Position numbers and translations under genes: made by a program. A stretch of 64,000 nt of DNA, from contig CP076040.1 in assembly GCA_014529675.2 (NCBI GenBank), positions 1,984,001 through 2,048,000 on the forward strand. Reading direction: 5' to 3'. The notes beneath the pieces are model-generated. The model saw only the letters and a list, made by a program, of their open reading frames with translations. It was not told where the DNA came from and searched no databases. Shown here piece by piece: positions 13,744-63,201 of the stretch. Source of the DNA: Opitutia bacterium ISCC 52. GTDB lineage: Bacteria > Verrucomicrobiota > Verrucomicrobiia > Opitutales > UBA2995. Every line of letters starts with the position of its first letter. The stretch's first letter is position 1.

Positions 13744-14658
13744 TCACTTAATCCTCTGCCTAAATAACCAATCCCATACACTAGGTGTAGGATCACAGCG
13801 ATCGCTGCTCATGTGGGTGATGTAACCTTTTTCCTGGTTATCACCTTTGTAGTAGAAAGCAAAATTGCTGGCGTTGTGTTTCACGTCTTTGAGGATGGTG
13901 AACTTCATATTCCCATTCTGTTTCTTCATTTTCTCGAAAATAGAGCTGGAAAAATCAAACGGCACGACGGGATCAACGTCGCCGTGAAAGGCCCAAATGG
14001 GTGTGCTTTTTAACGCGCTCATATTTTTGAAAGGCATTAACCCGCCGGCACTTGGAATAGCTGCGGCAAATTTATTGGGTTCCGCCCAAATAGCATTCCA
14101 GGCTCCTATGCCACCCAAAGAATGTCCCATGACGTAAATACGTTTGGTATCGATGGAATAATCACGGGCGATTTGCTCTATAAGAAGGAAGGCCATGGTT
14201 AGGCTTCCAGTTGATACCGCATCTGACGAATAGCGTCCGCTTTCAAAAAGTGCTTTCCATCCCGGTGAAAAGTTTCTGATCTCCTCTGTAGAAAATTTGG
14301 GAATCTTCTCATTAAAAAGAGCCCAGGAACTCCTCGATTGAGGAGCAACTACTACACAGGGATATTTTTTACGCCATGACTGATCGACAAAGACTTCAGT
14401 CCAATTACGCATTTGAGATTCGTTGTCATCTCCAACGCCACCAGCTCCGTGAAGGTTGAGAATGAGAGGGTATTTCTGCTTAGGGTCATAATTATCCGGT
14501 AGGAGAAATCTATAGGGCATTCCTTTGAAATCAAGGGCCTCATAAGTATTAAGAACTTCAGGAGGAATACCTGCACCTTTATTGCCTGCCCGATTCTGGG
14601 CGAAGGTGATGGATGCTGAAAGTAGTATAAAGAGTAGGAGCCTAAGTAAGAGTTTCAT
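13744..14658 (-). CDS. Secreted alpha/beta-hydrolase, PHB depolymerase/feruloyl esterase-like
   Basis: A 304-residue protein with a clear signal peptide (LLLRLLLFILLSASITFA). It has the oxyanion segment NLHGAGG (about 68-74), nucleophile elbow GHSLGG with Ser180, acid Asp in HGDVD (227 or 229) and His261 in DVKHNAS, all in the right order for a serine hydrolase. Such secreted esterases release acyl groups from plant or algal polysaccharides or degrade polyesters. It starts 11 bases after the stop of the M20 amidohydrolase gene on the same strand, so the two are probably co-transcribed. Its stop abuts that of the DUF3604 gene on the other strand. Confidence 0.85.
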   Translation of the reverse strand: MKLLLRLLLFILLSASITFAQNRAGNKGAGIPPEVLNTYEALDFKGMPYRFLLPDNYDPKQKYPLILNLHGAGGVGDDNESQMRNWTEVFVDQSWRKKYPCVVVAPQSRSSWALFNEKIPKFSTEEIRNFSPGWKALFESGRYSSDAVSTGSLTMAFLLIEQIARDYSIDTKRIYVMGHSLGGIGAWNAIWAEPNKFAAAIPSAGGLMPFKNMSALKSTPIWAFHGDVDPVVPFDFSSSIFEKMKKQNGNMKFTILKDVKHNASNFAFYYKGDNQEKGYITHMSSDRCDPTPSVWDWLFRQRIK

Positions 14659-23999: not shown

Positions 24000-25220
24000 T
24001 TAGTTCCTTGCAGTTGATCTTCGGGCTAGCAGTAAGCAGGCTGTGCCAGCAGCAATGACAAATACGGCTACGTAGGCCGATTGGTTCGGCTGTAGCACAC
24101 TTAGTAACCAATAAGCTGATACAGGAGCTAAAATACCTCGTAAACCGTTGAGCAGTGAAAACGCGCTGATGTAGTCTGCGATGGTGTGCTTGGGAACAAC
24201 CTTAGTAATCCATAAGTGATTGTGGACTTTCTGCGCGCCCATCGAGAGGCCAAAAATAGCCATCGCCAAAAGCATGATCCAATAATTGGTAGTGAAGAAA
24301 AAGAGCAGGGTGCTAACGATCATGAGTCCACCCATGATGGCCTGAGTTGATTCCAGGCGAAAATGATCAAATAGCCTTCCCCAAGTCCGACTACTTATCA
24401 AAGCAACGGTCATCGGAAGTATAGCAAATAACCAGGTGATCTGGCTGTTAGTTAAGTTTATTCCATATATTTCATTTGCCAGGTACTCCATTCGAATGGG
24501 GAGCATTATGTAGTTTCCCAATTCCAGTAATGACCAGAGAAGCGAAAGCTTGGCAAAATGTGTGTTTTTCCAGAACAGCTGAACCGTGTGGTAGGGGAAA
24601 CGGCTTTTAGGTCGTCTCAATCTAGGGGATGGTAAATTGAAGTAACAAAATGCAACCAGATAATAAGCGGCTGCAGCTGAAGCCAGAACCCATACGTAAT
24701 TCCTCAAACTGGCATCCATTAGGTAGCCGAAAGACAAAGAGCAGACTAAAAACACTATCCCTCCAATCATGACCGTAGTGCCCACTTTTCTGCCTCGAAT
24801 TTCGGGTCGATAATTCTCGGCGAGAATTCTTGGTAATAGCGTGAAGCCCTGAACCCCAATGATCATCGATATGGTGACTGCGATTACGAAATATTCAGTG
24901 GTTTTAGCAAATACACTAGCGGTAAAACAGACAGCCGTCGTTGAAGTGTAGATGACACAGGCGATATTGCACCTAAGTCTAAAGTAGGAAGCCATCCACA
25001 GGAACACAGGCATTAGAAACATGCCTGCCCATAAGGCTGAAGCGACTATACTTTTTTGAGTGCTGGATGCATCGAACACGCGGATGGCAATGAGTAGAAT
25101 AAAGGTGCTGAAAACAGCATCATTAACACCCGCAGAAATGCCCCGAATCCTGTCCCAGAAATACGTGACTTGCTCTATGTGCTGACGTTTGGCGTCTGGT
25201 GGCCTGGTTTGATCACTCAC
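24000..25220 (-). CDS. Major facilitator superfamily transporter
   Basis: A 406-residue membrane protein with about 12 hydrophobic segments. The N-terminal region NYRPEIRGRKVG and the loop RLRRPKSRFPYHT separate the two six-helix bundles in the usual way. It starts with GTG at 25220 and is divergent from the dehydrogenase at 25362, with 141 bases between. The substrate cannot be told from sequence; the neighbourhood (sugar dehydrogenases) suggests a sugar or sugar-acid carrier, which is only context. Confidence 0.75.
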   Translation of the reverse strand: MSDQTRPPDAKRQHIEQVTYFWDRIRGISAGVNDAVFSTFILLIAIRVFDASSTQKSIVASALWAGMFLMPVFLWMASYFRLRCNIACVIYTSTTAVCFTASVFAKTTEYFVIAVTISMIIGVQGFTLLPRILAENYRPEIRGRKVGTTVMIGGIVFLVCSLSFGYLMDASLRNYVWVLASAAAAYYLVAFCYFNLPSPRLRRPKSRFPYHTVQLFWKNTHFAKLSLLWSLLELGNYIMLPIRMEYLANEIYGINLTNSQITWLFAILPMTVALISSRTWGRLFDHFRLESTQAIMGGLMIVSTLLFFFTTNYWIMLLAMAIFGLSMGAQKVHNHLWITKVVPKHTIADYISAFSLLNGLRGILAPVSAYWLLSVLQPNQSAYVAVFVIAAGTACLLLARRSTARN

Positions 25221-57761: not shown

Positions 57762-58937
57762 TTGAAAACAGAACTAGTTGCAGGAATCCAAGGTGAGTAT
57801 GGACCGATCACTGTTAGTGAACGGTTGGTGCAAAAGATCTGGGCTCGAGGTGAGTTTCGGCAGACCGGTTTGCAGACCCTGGAGGGACGGTCCTTAGAGA
57901 TTGTGGAATGAGGTAATTGGAATTTGTTAGCGGGCCCCGAATTTAAAAACGTAGTTTTGCGCATAGATGGTGAGCTGCTGCATGGGGATGCTGAGCTACA
58001 TTTTTTTGAATCTGATTGGGATGCCCATGGTCATGGGAAGAATCCAGCCTTTGACGATGTAATCTTACATATTCTCGTTTTTCCTCCGAAACCAAGGACA
58101 TCGCCCACGCGCTGCAGTATAGAACACTCATTGTTATTCATAGACCTGCTTCCCCAAGGTTTGGAAAGTTATGCAGAAGAAGAAGTATTGGGTGCTTTAG
58201 CTGATGGAGAAACCACCGCACTTGAGGAGAGGCTCTTAATTCTGCCATTGGAGCAGCGCCAGTAGAAGCTTTTGAAGGCTGCCAAGTCTCGGTGGCTCGG
58301 AAAAGTCGACTATGCTCGCAAACGACTAGAGATTTTGAGTTGGGAAAATGCCTGCCATCAGACGGCTATGGAAATCCTCGGTTACCGCTATAATCGCGCA
58401 GTTATGCTGTTCCTGGCAGGCGATTATACGTTGGAGGCTATACGTTCAGGCTCTCATAGTGTTGAGGATATTTTTAGAGCAGGGAAGGGAAGATGGAAAT
58501 TGTCCGGGAGTAGACCGGCAAATCACCCAAAAATTCGTTTAGACCAGTAATTTGAATGGGTTCTCGCCAGGCCTAATTGGCCTTAAAGCTTGGTCTCATG
58601 GGGAGATGAGCTTCAAGATGCTGAAATGGCACCCTCAGCTACTTGTTCCAGGAGGAGTCTTCAATTGGGGGACAGGAAACGAAACCTGGCAGACAATGTC
58701 CTGGCAAATGCCGTGGGTGGAACGCGCATTGAAAATATGGTTTGTGACGGATTTCTACCCCTTTTGGCAGCTCGTTCCAGAGATGATTATTTCATGCATT
58801 GGTATGATTGGTTTCCAGGGGATGTGCCTTCAGCGCTCAAACAACTGTTTCGTAGGCTGGGTGAGGACAGCTCTGTGCTGGGCCCGCACAGAAATGGCGC
58901 CTATCAGGGGCTCGTCGGATGCCTGCTGGAGAAGTAG
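57762..58937 (+). pseudogene. DUF2851 family gene with four in-frame stop codons
   Basis: From about 57762 one frame encodes a recognisable DUF2851 protein without a single frameshift: GPITVSERLVQKIWARGEF, LLAGPEFKNVVLRIDGELL, ELHFFESDWDAHGHGKNPAF, ENACHQTAMEILGYRYNRA, RWKLSGSRPANHPKIRL, then GGTRIENMVCDGFLPLLAAR. It is interrupted by TGA 57909-57911, TAG 58263-58265, TAA 58548-58550 and TAA 58584-58586 before the natural TAG 58935-58937. No ATG opens the frame. Mixed stop types argue against readthrough. Function of intact DUF2851 is unknown. It lies where rimP often lies, just upstream of nusA. Confidence 0.85.
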
Positions 58938-58985: not shown

Positions 58986-59014
58986 TTGACATGGGATTGG
59001 ACCGGGTCTATCAA
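58986..59014 (+). promoter_or_regulatory. Strong sigma-70-type promoter for nusA
   Basis: TTGACA (58986-58991, full consensus), a 17-base spacer and TATCAA (59009-59014). The expected start site is near 59021, about 65 bases before nusA. It drives the nusA-infB-rbfA-nrnA-like cluster. Confidence 0.75.
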
Positions 59015-59045
59015 TGCTGCCTTTAACACTTTACCAACACTGGGA

Positions 59046-59072
59046 AGTGGGCTTATTAGCCCGCTTTTTTTT
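59046..59072 (+). terminator. Attenuator-like hairpin in the nusA leader
   Basis: AGTGGGCT (59046-59053), loop TATT, AGCCCGCT (59058-59065), then T to 59072: an eight-pair stem with one G-T pair and a strong T-tail. It lies between promoter and the nusA ATG (59088), so it ends or slows transcription inside the leader rather than closing an upstream gene. GTGGGC hairpins with T-tails are common before rimP/nusA operons in many bacteria, where they are thought to take part in NusA feedback; that role here is inference. Confidence 0.75.
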
Positions 59073-59087
59073 ATCACTTTTTTTGAC

Positions 59088-60332
59088 ATGAGTAGCGAAA
59101 TCTTATCCGTCCTGGAATACATGGAGAAGGAAAAAGGCATCAGTCGTGAAGACATGATTGGAGCCATTTCCTTAGCTATCAAAACAGCGGCCGCGAAAGG
59201 CGTAAATGCCGATCAGGAGCTGAAGGTGGAAATCGATCCTAAAACGGGTCATCTCGAAGCTTGGACGCTACTGGAAGTCGTTGATTCAGTCAGCGATTCT
59301 AGAACCCAGATTCATATCGAGAAAGCACGCCTGGTCGACAAGGAGAAAAACCTGGGTGATTTATTCGAAAAACCAATCGATCCAGCTTACCTGGGACGCA
59401 TTGCTGCGCAGACGGCTCGCCAAGCCATTATACAAAAGGTGCGGCAGTTTGAGAAAGAGCGCATTTTTGATGATTACAAAGATTCAATCGGCGATGTGAT
59501 TTCCGGGATCGTGCGTCGACGTGAGCGCAATGATCTAATCATTGACCTGGGAAAAGCTGAAGCACTCTTACCAGCCCGTGAAAAGGTATTCGGTGAAGAC
59601 TATGCACCCGGTGAACGCATCCGCTGCCTGCTTCTAGCCATCGAGCAAACGAATCGTGGCCCTGAGTTAATTCTCACACGCGCACACCCTAAATTTATTC
59701 GCCGTTTGATGGAACTCGAAGTCACCGAGATTACAGACGGAACCGTGGTCATTAAGGCCCTGGCTCGTGAGCCTGGTTATCGCACCAAAATTGCGGTAGC
59801 TAGTAAGGATGCTAAAGTAGATCCAGTAGGTGCTTGTGTCGGAGCTCGTGGAGCTCGCGTCAAAAGCATTGTCCGAGAGCTTGGTGGTGAGAAGATTGAT
59901 ATCATCCGCCATTTCGAAGATCCGGAGGAAATGTTAGCTGAAGCGTTGAAGCCAGCCGTGCCAATCAATGTTCAAATCGATGAGCGCAACAAACGCATTC
60001 ATTTCGAAGTGGCAGATCGTGACCTTTCCGTTGCCATTGGCCGCCGTGGACAAAATGCGCGTTTGACCTCTCGTTTGATGGGATGGCGTCTCGACATCAG
60101 CAAAGAAAAGGTCGCTGGAGGTTTTGAAGACAAGAAAGAGCGGGCGATCGCAGGACTTAATCAAATCCCTGGTATCAGTGATGAGTTGGCCGAACGACTT
60201 GTTGCCGTAGGTCTTGTCAGTCCAGATGCATTTGCCGGAGTAGAAGCCTCTGATCTAGTGGACGCAGAATTTACAGAAGACGAAGCCAATATTATTTTAA
60301 CCAAAGTTAAGGAATTCCTCACACAGGAATAA
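59088..60332 (+). CDS. nusA: Transcription termination/antitermination factor NusA
   Basis: A 414-residue protein. N-terminal RNA-polymerase-binding domain ([19 protein letters not shown]), S1 domain (about 130-200; [20 protein letters not shown]), KH1 and KH2 domains ([37 protein letters not shown]), and a C-terminal helix-hairpin-helix/acidic repeat ([17 protein letters not shown]). NusA binds the elongating polymerase and controls pausing, termination and antitermination. ATG 59088 gives the family N-terminus; an earlier TTG at 58986 lies inside the promoter. rimP, the usual upstream neighbour, is not here. Confidence 0.95.
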
Positions 60333-60378: not shown

Positions 60379-62796
60379 ATGAGTGTAAGAATTCACGAAA
60401 TTGCTAAACAGACCGGAGTCGCCAGTAAGGAGATTATCGAATTACTGAAGGAGCGAGGATACGAAGTATCTACTGCTTCAAGTGGTATCGATCCCATCTC
60501 TGCTGAATCTCTAATTGAAGAGCTAGGCAAAAAAGCGGAACCCGAAGCGGCAAGCGACCCCACTTCAACGGAATCTCCACCGGAGGAGCCGAAGAAACAA
60601 GAAGCTCCTGAATCGCCAACGGCCCCTCCTATAAGCGCATTTGTGCGGTCAAAGGAAGATATCGACCGGGAAAAGGAAGAGAAGCGTCAGGAAGAGGAAA
60701 ATAAAAGAAAATCGGCAGCTACAGCGCCTCCGATTCCGACACCTCCGCCTCCGCCAGCACCTCCGCCATCAGCACCTTCTCCAGCGGCTCCGCCGCCCGT
60801 TACTCCACCCGCTGCGGCTCCTAAAGCTGCACCACCGGCACCAGCTCCCGCAACTCCAGCTGCACCAGTAGCGGTCGCTCCACCTGCCGGCGCACCTCCA
60901 CCTCTTGCTGGACGACCTCCGGCGACTCCCGGTATCGGTGCTCCGCCGCCCCCACTCAATCAACCAGCAGATGAAGAAGCTGCTGAAGAGGGTGAATCAG
61001 CCGCAGAAGCAAGTGATGACATTAAAGTGGTTACAGTGAAGCCACCCATCGTCGTTAAGGAATTTGCCTTAGAGATCGGCCTCAAGCCTTTCAAATTGAT
61101 ATCAGAACTCATGGAGATGGGGATTTTCTCTTCCATGAATCAAAATATTGATGAAGAGGTAGCCGTCAAATTAGCCGAAAGACATGGCTTTCTCCTGGAA
61201 GTAAAACACCGTGGTGAAGAAAAACAACCGGCACCTAAGAAGAAGGTAGTCGAAGTTGATCAAAGTAAGTTCCTCGAACCTCGACCACCGGTTATTTGTA
61301 TTTTGGGTCACGTTGATCACGGAAAGACAACTTTACTGGATCACATCCGAAATGCCAACGTGGTATCTGATGAATTCGGTGGAATTACTCAGCACATCGG
61401 CGCTTACCAAGTGGAGCATGGCGATCAGAAAATCACTTTTCTCGACACTCCCGGCCACGCAGCTTTCTCCAAAATGCGAGAGCGTGGGGCACATGTGACT
61501 GATTTAGCGATTCTGGTTGTAGCTGCTGATGATGGATTTATGCCACAAACTGACGAGGCACTGAAGTTTGCTGAAGACTCTGGCAACCCCATCATTGTAG
61601 CCATCAATAAGATGGACTCCAAGGGAGCTGACATTGATCGCGTTAAGACCCAGATGCAGGAGCGGAATATTGCTCCGGAAGACTGGGGTGGTGAAACCAT
61701 TTCCGTAGCTATTTCAGCCTTAAAAGGTGAAAATGTAGACGATCTTCTGGAGATGATTAATCTTCAGTCTGAAGTCATGGAATTAAAGTCGAGTCCTAAA
61801 GGGCCAGCCTCTGGAACCGTGGTTGAATCACAAATGGAGGTAGGTCGAGGACCTACAGCTACCGTGATCGTGCAGCAAGGAACTCTCAAGGTGGGTGACG
61901 CAATTGTTTGCGGCGAAAGCTTTGCCAAGGTTCGTGCTATGATGGACGACAACGGCAAAAACTTGAAATCAGCACTTCCATCTACTCCTGTGAGAATTAT
62001 GGGCTGGTCAGACACGCCAAGCAGTGGTGATGAGTTTACAGTAGTCAAAAATGAAAAAACTGCCAAGGGTATCGTCGAAGAACGTACTTTAGAGCGAAGA
62101 AGAGGAGCTTCCGTAGAAGAGGAAGAAGAGCCCAAGAAACCTGCGACCATTGAGACTCTTTTTGAAGCCATTGAAAAGACACGTAAGAAAGTCTTTAAGG
62201 TTGTGGTGAAGTGCGACGTGCATGGATCTACTGAAGCGGTCACTGATATCCTAGAGGCCATTCAAAGCGACAAAGTTGACCTGGAAGTTATTACGGCTGA
62301 AGTGGGTGGAATTAGTAAGCAGGATGTGGATCTTGCGAGCACTTCCGATGCAGCGGTAATCGGTTTCAATGTAAAACTTGAAAGCGGTGTAGCTCCCATA
62401 GCTAAACACGCGGGTGTAAACATCATGCAATTTAACATCATCTATGAGATGGTGGATAAAGTGATGGAGGCGATGGCCGATCAGCTTGAGCCAGAATTGA
62501 GTGAAAAGACGGTTGGTTCTGCCGAAGTTAGACAACTATTCCCAGTAGGACGTACCACCGTTGCTGGTTGTTTGGTTTCTGATGGCAAGATTAGCCGGGA
62601 TGCCAAAGCACGAGTGCTTCGCAATGGCACTCAAATATTCAAAGGCAAGATTTCCATGCTCAAACGCTTTAAGGATGACGTTAAAGAGGTGCGTAACGGT
62701 TACGAATGTGGTGTTCAGGTGACTGACTTCGGAGATTTCGAAGAAGGCGACGTTATTGAATGCTTCGAAATCGAGAAGAAGCGTGCATCCCTTTAA
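60379..62796 (+). CDS. infB: Translation initiation factor IF-2
   Basis: An 805-residue GTPase. The N-terminal IF2-N domain (VRIHEIAKQTGVASKEIIELL) is followed by a Pro/Ala-rich linker (about 75-200), a second IF2-N module and the G domain with GHVDHGKTT (310-318), DTPGH (356-360) and NKMD (410-413), then domains II-IV including the fMet-tRNA-binding C-terminus (DFGDFEEGDVIECFE). It brings initiator tRNA to the 30S subunit and promotes subunit joining. 46 bases from nusA, same strand. The linker is rich in P and A (APAPATPAAPVAVAP) and its reverse strand gives a false Gly-rich ORF. Confidence 0.96.
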   Translation: MSVRIHEIAKQTGVASKEIIELLKERGYEVSTASSGIDPISAESLIEELGKKAEPEAASDPTSTESPPEEPKKQEAPESPTAPPISAFVRSKEDIDREKEEKRQEEENKRKSAATAPPIPTPPPPPAPPPSAPSPAAPPPVTPPAAAPKAAPPAPAPATPAAPVAVAPPAGAPPPLAGRPPATPGIGAPPPPLNQPADEEAAEEGESAAEASDDIKVVTVKPPIVVKEFALEIGLKPFKLISELMEMGIFSSMNQNIDEEVAVKLAERHGFLLEVKHRGEEKQPAPKKKVVEVDQSKFLEPRPPVICILGHVDHGKTTLLDHIRNANVVSDEFGGITQHIGAYQVEHGDQKITFLDTPGHAAFSKMRERGAHVTDLAILVVAADDGFMPQTDEALKFAEDSGNPIIVAINKMDSKGADIDRVKTQMQERNIAPEDWGGETISVAISALKGENVDDLLEMINLQSEVMELKSSPKGPASGTVVESQMEVGRGPTATVIVQQGTLKVGDAIVCGESFAKVRAMMDDNGKNLKSALPSTPVRIMGWSDTPSSGDEFTVVKNEKTAKGIVEERTLERRRGASVEEEEEPKKPATIETLFEAIEKTRKKVFKVVVKCDVHGSTEAVTDILEAIQSDKVDLEVITAEVGGISKQDVDLASTSDAAVIGFNVKLESGVAPIAKHAGVNIMQFNIIYEMVDKVMEAMADQLEPELSEKTVGSAEVRQLFPVGRTTVAGCLVSDGKISRDAKARVLRNGTQIFKGKISMLKRFKDDVKEVRNGYECGVQVTDFGDFEEGDVIECFEIEKKRASL

Positions 62797-62835: not shown

Positions 62836-63201
62836 ATGGGGCAAAGAAACCTACGTGTAAATGTGCTCGTTCAACAGGAGATTAGCCATCTCTTGCACAC
62901 GAGGTATCGCGGAGACACTGTATACATTACCATAATTGATGTATCGATTTCGCCTGATCTTCGTAATGGCCGTGTTTACTATTCGGTCATTGGCGGAGAA
63001 GAGGAAAAAAAGAAGGCCGAAAAGTTCTTTAGGCAGAATGCCCACGATATTCGTAATCACCTTGGAAAGCGAATCGTGCTTAAGTATCTGCCGCATCTCC
63101 GTTACAATTATGATGAGTCAATTGCACGCGGAGTTGATATCATAGATTTGATGGATGAGGTGGCTGATGAAGGAATTTCTGAAGAATCATCTGACTCATG
63201 A
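62836..63201 (+). CDS. rbfA: Ribosome-binding factor A
   Basis: A 121-residue KH-like protein. RNLRVNVLVQQEISHLL, TIIDVSISPDLRNGRVYYSV and LGKRIVLKYLPHLRYNYDES are the family's three conserved segments. RbfA helps mature the 5' end of 16S rRNA and aids cold adaptation. Its TGA (63199-63201) overlaps the next gene's ATG by two bases. Gap to infB is 39 bases. Confidence 0.94.
   Translation: MGQRNLRVNVLVQQEISHLLHTRYRGDTVYITIIDVSISPDLRNGRVYYSVIGGEEEKKKAEKFFRQNAHDIRNHLGKRIVLKYLPHLRYNYDESIARGVDIIDLMDEVADEGISEESSDS

Follow-up and report, generated by a model that had tools for sequence, protein, structure and literature searches.

In the window (the whole stretch of 64,000 nucleotides that was analysed), the presumed nusA-infB-rbfA operon has a short leader that probably holds a transcription attenuator, at which NusA would promote termination and where, in Opitutales, an upstream helix would compete with the terminator; we put the probability of this reading at about 0.7. 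Conservation, covariation and specificity for nusA make it very likely that the hairpin in front of the gene is a leader attenuator, and by analogy with known systems NusA is likely to feed back on its own production through this hairpin. The sequence-only reading had judged the leader to fit such feedback: its attenuator part is supported by the three lines of evidence just named, while its feedback part leans on the precedents of B. subtilis and of the rimP-leader.

The nusA leader in the window

The nearest named relatives of the NusA protein of this 4.8-Mb genome belong to the Opitutales of the Verrucomicrobiota. The nusA gene (59088-60332; TIGR01953, 369.7 bits against a cut-off of 253.4; NusA_N and KH_5 domains) begins with the ATG at 59088-59090, a start codon backed by the alignment of its relatives from residue 1. 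Downstream on the same forward strand follow infB (60379-62796; TIGR00487, 709.1 bits, cut-off 424.4) and rbfA (62836-63201; Pfam RBFA, 80.9 bits, cut-off 34.7), and we presume that the three genes form an operon served by the promoter described below. The assembly is a single contig of 97.8% completeness. A search with the SSU rRNA family found no 16S gene in this genome; since it was positive in no more than 9 of 14 controls, it may simply have overlooked the gene.

The predicted promoter TTGACA-17-TATCAA occupies 58986-59014 of the forward strand, with TTGACA at 58986-58991 and TATCAA at 59009-59014, and the transcript would start about seven bases past the -10 element, near 59021. The 5' end of the leader, CTTTAACAC, resembles boxA, for which reason a boxA or Nus-complex reading was considered. 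The core hairpin GTGGGCT/AGCCCGC has its 5' arm, AGTGGGCT, at 59046-59053 and its 3' arm, AGCCCGCT, at 59058-59065, closed by the loop TATT (59054-59057); the stem counts eight pairs, one of them U.G. Adding the pairs A45-T66 and G44.T67 gives a stem of ten pairs and -15.1 kcal/mol, with the extended arms GAAGTGGGCT (59044-59053) and AGCCCGCTTT (59058-59067), both defined by sequence and by covariation. The U-tract of eight T (59065-59072) is paired at its start within this extended stem, and a T-run is also found in the relatives. From the T-run to the ATG there are 15 bases, the extended hairpin ending 20 nt 5' of the ATG, and by eye the stretch that separates hairpin and ATG shows no Shine-Dalgarno-like sequence. 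The other Opitutales nusA leaders inspected by eye likewise have no evident Shine-Dalgarno sequence in this interval. Direct reading of the sequence thus agrees with what had been claimed for this leader, namely a TTGACA-17-TATCAA promoter ahead of nusA and, exactly, an eight-pair GTGGGCT hairpin with a T-tail 15 bases before the ATG, the T-run being eight long.

Simple scans of the region listed neither element. The terminator scan probably left out the hairpin because its stem pairs into the T-run, and the promoter scan missed TTGACA/TATCAA because it requires T as the final -10 base. Judged by folding alone the hairpin is only moderately unusual, its stability being equalled by 4 of 200 shuffles; what decides that it is more than chance is the comparison with relatives described below.

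Upstream of this leader, on the same strand, lies a broken DUF2851 gene which ends about 150 bases upstream. At 57924-58937 of the window DUF2851 is split across several reading frames, perhaps by decay or through a sequencing error, and the close relative L002 has a single open frame of 339 aa which looks like the same protein. At ten nusA leaders that were scanned for their nearest long reading frames, nine of these frames received a family assignment. Same-strand neighbours include DUF2851, kdtA, lpxK and glycosyltransferase genes, and among the divergent ones are queC, DNA polymerase III delta', GDPD and transposase genes.

Conservation and covariation of the hairpin

The comparison with related genomes, which the sequence-only reading had proposed, finds the hairpin conserved within the order and beyond it. 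A first set of 80 leaders was composed of the window and the 79 relatives having upstream sequence among the best 80 of 346 relatives (L025 comes without it). An energy-based script found the T-tailed hairpin in 77 of these 80 Opitutales leaders, and by eye the remaining three (L011, L024 and L065) carry imperfect hairpins. All 77 hairpin-bearing leaders have a TTGAC 45-80 nt upstream of the stem. The distance from promoter to stem is 49-64 nt in 71 of them; of the other six, four reflect a nearer chance TTGAC and two measure 72 and 75 nt. Between the end of the hairpin and the ATG there are 14-41 nt. As the promoter motif precedes the hairpin in every case, the hairpin should be transcribed together with nusA, which upholds the earlier claim that the predicted promoter is placed so as to include it.

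A wider energy-based script covered 153 leaders, 113 from Opitutales, 20 from other families of the class and 20 from other classes. Terminator-like hairpins were present in 111 of the 113 Opitutales leaders (GGG motif, by the definition used in the script, in 104) and in 18 of the 20 leaders of other classes (GGG motif also in 18). Among the 20 leaders from the remaining families of the class the script reported a hairpin in 13, nine of them with GGG, and detected none in seven; the corrected count is 11 of 20, eight with GGG and three variant, because the hairpins of L142 (GGG) and L146, at a distance of about 150 nt from nusA, look like chance and were discounted. Three leaders from these families (L149, L152 and L154) have a different core, GTGGAAAC..GTTTCCAC, and retain the outer GTGG..CCAC. 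Of the 109 motif-bearing Opitutales leaders, 75 have U.G as their second stem pair, 31 have C-G and three U-A; in other classes U-A occupies this position in 16 of 18.

Sixty further leaders were hand-picked from the best-scoring relatives listed and are not a random sample. Sixteen of the 29 loci L090-L118 stand outside the 153-leader count, and by eye all 16 have the hairpin; L083-L089 and L200-L202 were left out of the hairpin analysis. The 129 loci amount to 121 distinct leaders, which are not all independent. A crude regular expression, which is too strict, matched 89 of the 121, the match in L099 being misplaced; the misses that were printed carry the hairpin by eye, although the T-run of L024 is broken and L119 has a variant stem. 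The counts relied on here are those of the energy-based scripts.

In 34 divergent sequences 96.7% of the cells pair and both sides have changed in six of the eight pairs; none of 500 shuffles was as good on any of five measures. A covariance model built from these 34 sequences (R1) was used in genome searches; some of the genomes searched, such as the window's own, G109, G020 and G197, had also supplied training sequences. In the 4.8 Mb of the window's genome the nusA leader is the only R1 match at E<=1, and it is also the single match of the pattern GTGGGN{4,10}CCCRCTTTTT. Genomes other than the window's do have further R1 matches. Two weak matches on the reverse strand of the window, at 24287-24337 (14.5 bits) and 14303-14336 (12.7 bits), are possibly ordinary terminators.

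Of the 22 Opitutales genomes in this search, 21 have their best R1 match at nusA, and in the last one, G109, the nusA site is the second-best match. Across the class a match at E<=1 is present in 96 of 112 genomes and missing from 16, in a search with stricter filters by which weak matches are lost. Relative to nusA the best matches were placed for 48 genomes, 48 other matching genomes standing outside this count: 40 lie at nusA and eight elsewhere. When 11 of these 40 sites, chosen from among the matches listed and including that of G028, were fetched, nusA followed in all 11.

A predicted upstream helix in Opitutales

When the nascent leader is folded to minimum energy (-8.2 kcal/mol), a further arm, CACTTTACCA at 59027-59036, pairs with 59041-59049. 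As this second arm overlaps the 5' arm of the terminator, the two helices are mutually exclusive at 59044-59049. An upstream arm that pairs with the 5' arm of the terminator, the mark of classical terminator/antiterminator attenuators, is present in Opitutales.

Evidence that the pairing is maintained comes from exchanging arms between leaders. In 23 Opitutales leaders less than 72% alike, which share ancestry, arms paired with their own partners reach -7.96 kcal/mol against -6.43 kcal/mol for swapped arms, a difference attained in none of 20000 permutations. Two mock partners gave no significant effect in the same test (1875 and 5137 of 20000), and a set of 58 less strictly chosen representatives had the same outcome (0 of 5000). 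Outside the order, 26 leaders gave nothing (10018 of 20000), and an upstream helix common to the whole phylum was rejected for this reason. Single leaders are rarely significant: in a duplex test only 12.8% of 109 beat their shuffles at the 5% level.

The variable second base of the stem behaves differently in its two main groups. Leaders with GCGGG have G-C at this position of the predicted fold in 21 of 31 cases, compared with 34% of the swapped combinations, whereas leaders with GTGGG have A-U in 67 of 78, compared with 91%. Since the pairs lie above the swapped rate in the former and below it in the latter, this base, taken by itself, speaks for the pairing in just one of the groups.

In all 109 leaders the terminator exceeds the upstream helix in stability, so that the helix could prevail only if it forms first or is helped. 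Its predicted role in Opitutales is likely that of a transient antiterminator or of a pause hairpin.

Proposed mechanism and comparison with known systems

The course of events that we infer from these elements is the following. RNA polymerase would start near 59021 and traverse a leader of about 67 nt, in which the hairpin at 59044-59067 and the eight U would act as an intrinsic terminator, so that a fraction of the transcripts would end near 59072. NusA would promote both the folding of the hairpin and intrinsic termination, and more NusA would mean less readthrough into nusA. In Opitutales the helix 59027-59036/59041-59049 could form first and compete for the 5' arm of the terminator; it would most likely be a weak antiterminator or a pause-stabilising hairpin and would determine how much readthrough occurs. 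Terminators that depend on NusA tend to be weak. The stem in the window is fairly strong and its U-tract uninterrupted, which counts against a terminator of this kind.

That the hairpin arose by chance is practically negligible as an explanation: simple scans do find terminator- and promoter-like sites in the region to be no commoner than in shuffled sequence, but the conservation, the covariation and the uniqueness of the hairpin in its genome contradict it. Hardly more probable is a terminator which merely ends the upstream gene and is unrelated to nusA. The broken DUF2851 gene runs on the same strand and ends about 150 bases upstream, and DUF2851 also adjoins in L041 and, by eye, in several other loci; however, the predicted promoter sits between this gene and the hairpin, and the hairpin is kept beside divergent queC, DNA polymerase III delta', GDPD and transposase genes as well as beside kdtA and lpxK on the same strand. 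With neighbours so varied, and some of them divergent, the upstream-gene terminator was rejected.

A role after transcription, either in protecting the 5' end or in presenting the start codon by means of the hairpin and its U-run, appears improbable. It would suit the window, where no Shine-Dalgarno-like sequence stands between hairpin and ATG, and hairpins that end only 14-41 nt before the ATG. Against it, the T-run directly 3' of the stem is conserved together with the stem, which neither stability nor presentation of the start site requires, and the distance of the hairpin to the ATG ranges over 14-41 nt, compared with 49-64 nt from promoter to stem in 71 of the 77 leaders. The rival with most weight, still unlikely, is an attenuator that senses a signal other than NusA, be it NusG, polymerase speed, cold, IF2, RbfA or a factor binding the upstream helix. 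All that is visible in the leader is a terminator and a competing helix, the upstream arm of Opitutales could serve another input, and all transcript bands of the corresponding E. coli operon are described in PMC6511841 as increasing upon cold stress. Yet conservation of the hairpin extends much further than that of the upstream arm, the hairpin tracks nusA, and NusA feedback has been reported for the B. subtilis leader (PMC12288461).

For B. subtilis the 2025 review PMC12288461 states that NusA is autoregulated through NusA-stimulated termination in its leader. The likeness lies in an intrinsic terminator between promoter and gene, recognised here by sequence. The feedback is given there as established and is here proposed, and the leader of B. 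subtilis has 180 nt, as quoted in PMC2965389, and precedes rimP (ylxS), compared with about 67 nt directly before nusA in the window.

The closest known relative is the rimP-leader, which Naville and Gautheret (2010; PMC2965389) call the most ubiquitous attenuator and describe as an unusual conserved GGGc..gCCC terminator stem before rimP-nusA-infB operons. What it responds to was left undecided in 2010, with NusA feedback favoured and RimP possible. Our leader shares with it a short GGGc..gCCC terminator hairpin in the leader of an operon with nusA and infB, the stem in the window, GGGCTTATTAGCCC, fitting the conserved form, and a U-stretch straight after the stem, in the window as in its relatives. 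The rimP-leader is placed 4-130 nt ahead of the first gene, to be compared with 20 nt here and 14-41 nt in the 77 leaders, and its motif is reported as specific for the operon, as is consistent with one pattern match and one model match in the window's genome. The difference is in the first gene, which here is nusA and not rimP. Where the general form is described as having no visible antiterminator, the Opitutales form has its competing upstream helix; an antiterminator is described there for the tandem form of some Gammaproteobacteria. The main text of PMC2965389 does not contain Verrucomicrobi*, and our searches of the open-licence literature gave no description of such a leader in Verrucomicrobiota. 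The Rfam family RF01770 (rimP), named for the same kind of leader, exceeded its gathering cut-off of 47 bits in none of 18 genomes and matched neither the nusA leader of the window's genome nor the rest of the window, and over the window, the 18 genomes and 20 loci of relatives no Rfam family of such a leader rose above cut-off.

The protein RimP itself was not detected. RimP_N was found in none of 53 Opitutales genomes and none of 144 genomes of the phylum, in a search positive for 10 of 14 controls, and RimP_C passed its cut-off in none of 77 genomes. Two weak RimP_C matches are unlike RimP, to judge from a reading of the stretches by eye: the frame at L204 has the look of a secreted protein, and the match at L205 runs antisense to a long frame resembling an outer-membrane receptor. 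As RimP was not found in these searches, feedback by RimP is disfavoured in this phylum, and the persistence of the signal where no rimP is found argues for NusA, or at least the nusA operon, as the target.

In E. coli, CTGGGCTTTAGGCCC followed by seven T stands immediately upstream of rimP and has the same core as the hairpin of the window. It is the best R1 match in the two stretches compared, and a weak one (10.9 bits, E 0.17). The metY-rimP-nusA-infB leader of this organism has two successive terminators, one after metY and one before rimP, according to PMC6511841.

What is new with respect to these systems is a hairpin of the rimP-leader type directly before nusA, in a group in which RimP is not detected. 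Such a group constitutes a natural experiment pointing to NusA, and the Opitutales leader, very short, self-contained and provided with a competing helix, is convenient for studying the self-control of a termination factor. We tentatively suggest, at somewhat less than even odds, that the rimP-leader is at root an ancient NusA-sensing leader of nusA, which stays with nusA where there is no rimP, and that in Opitutales it may have become a two-state switch of about 50 nt with a co-evolving arm, whose balance NusA would tip.
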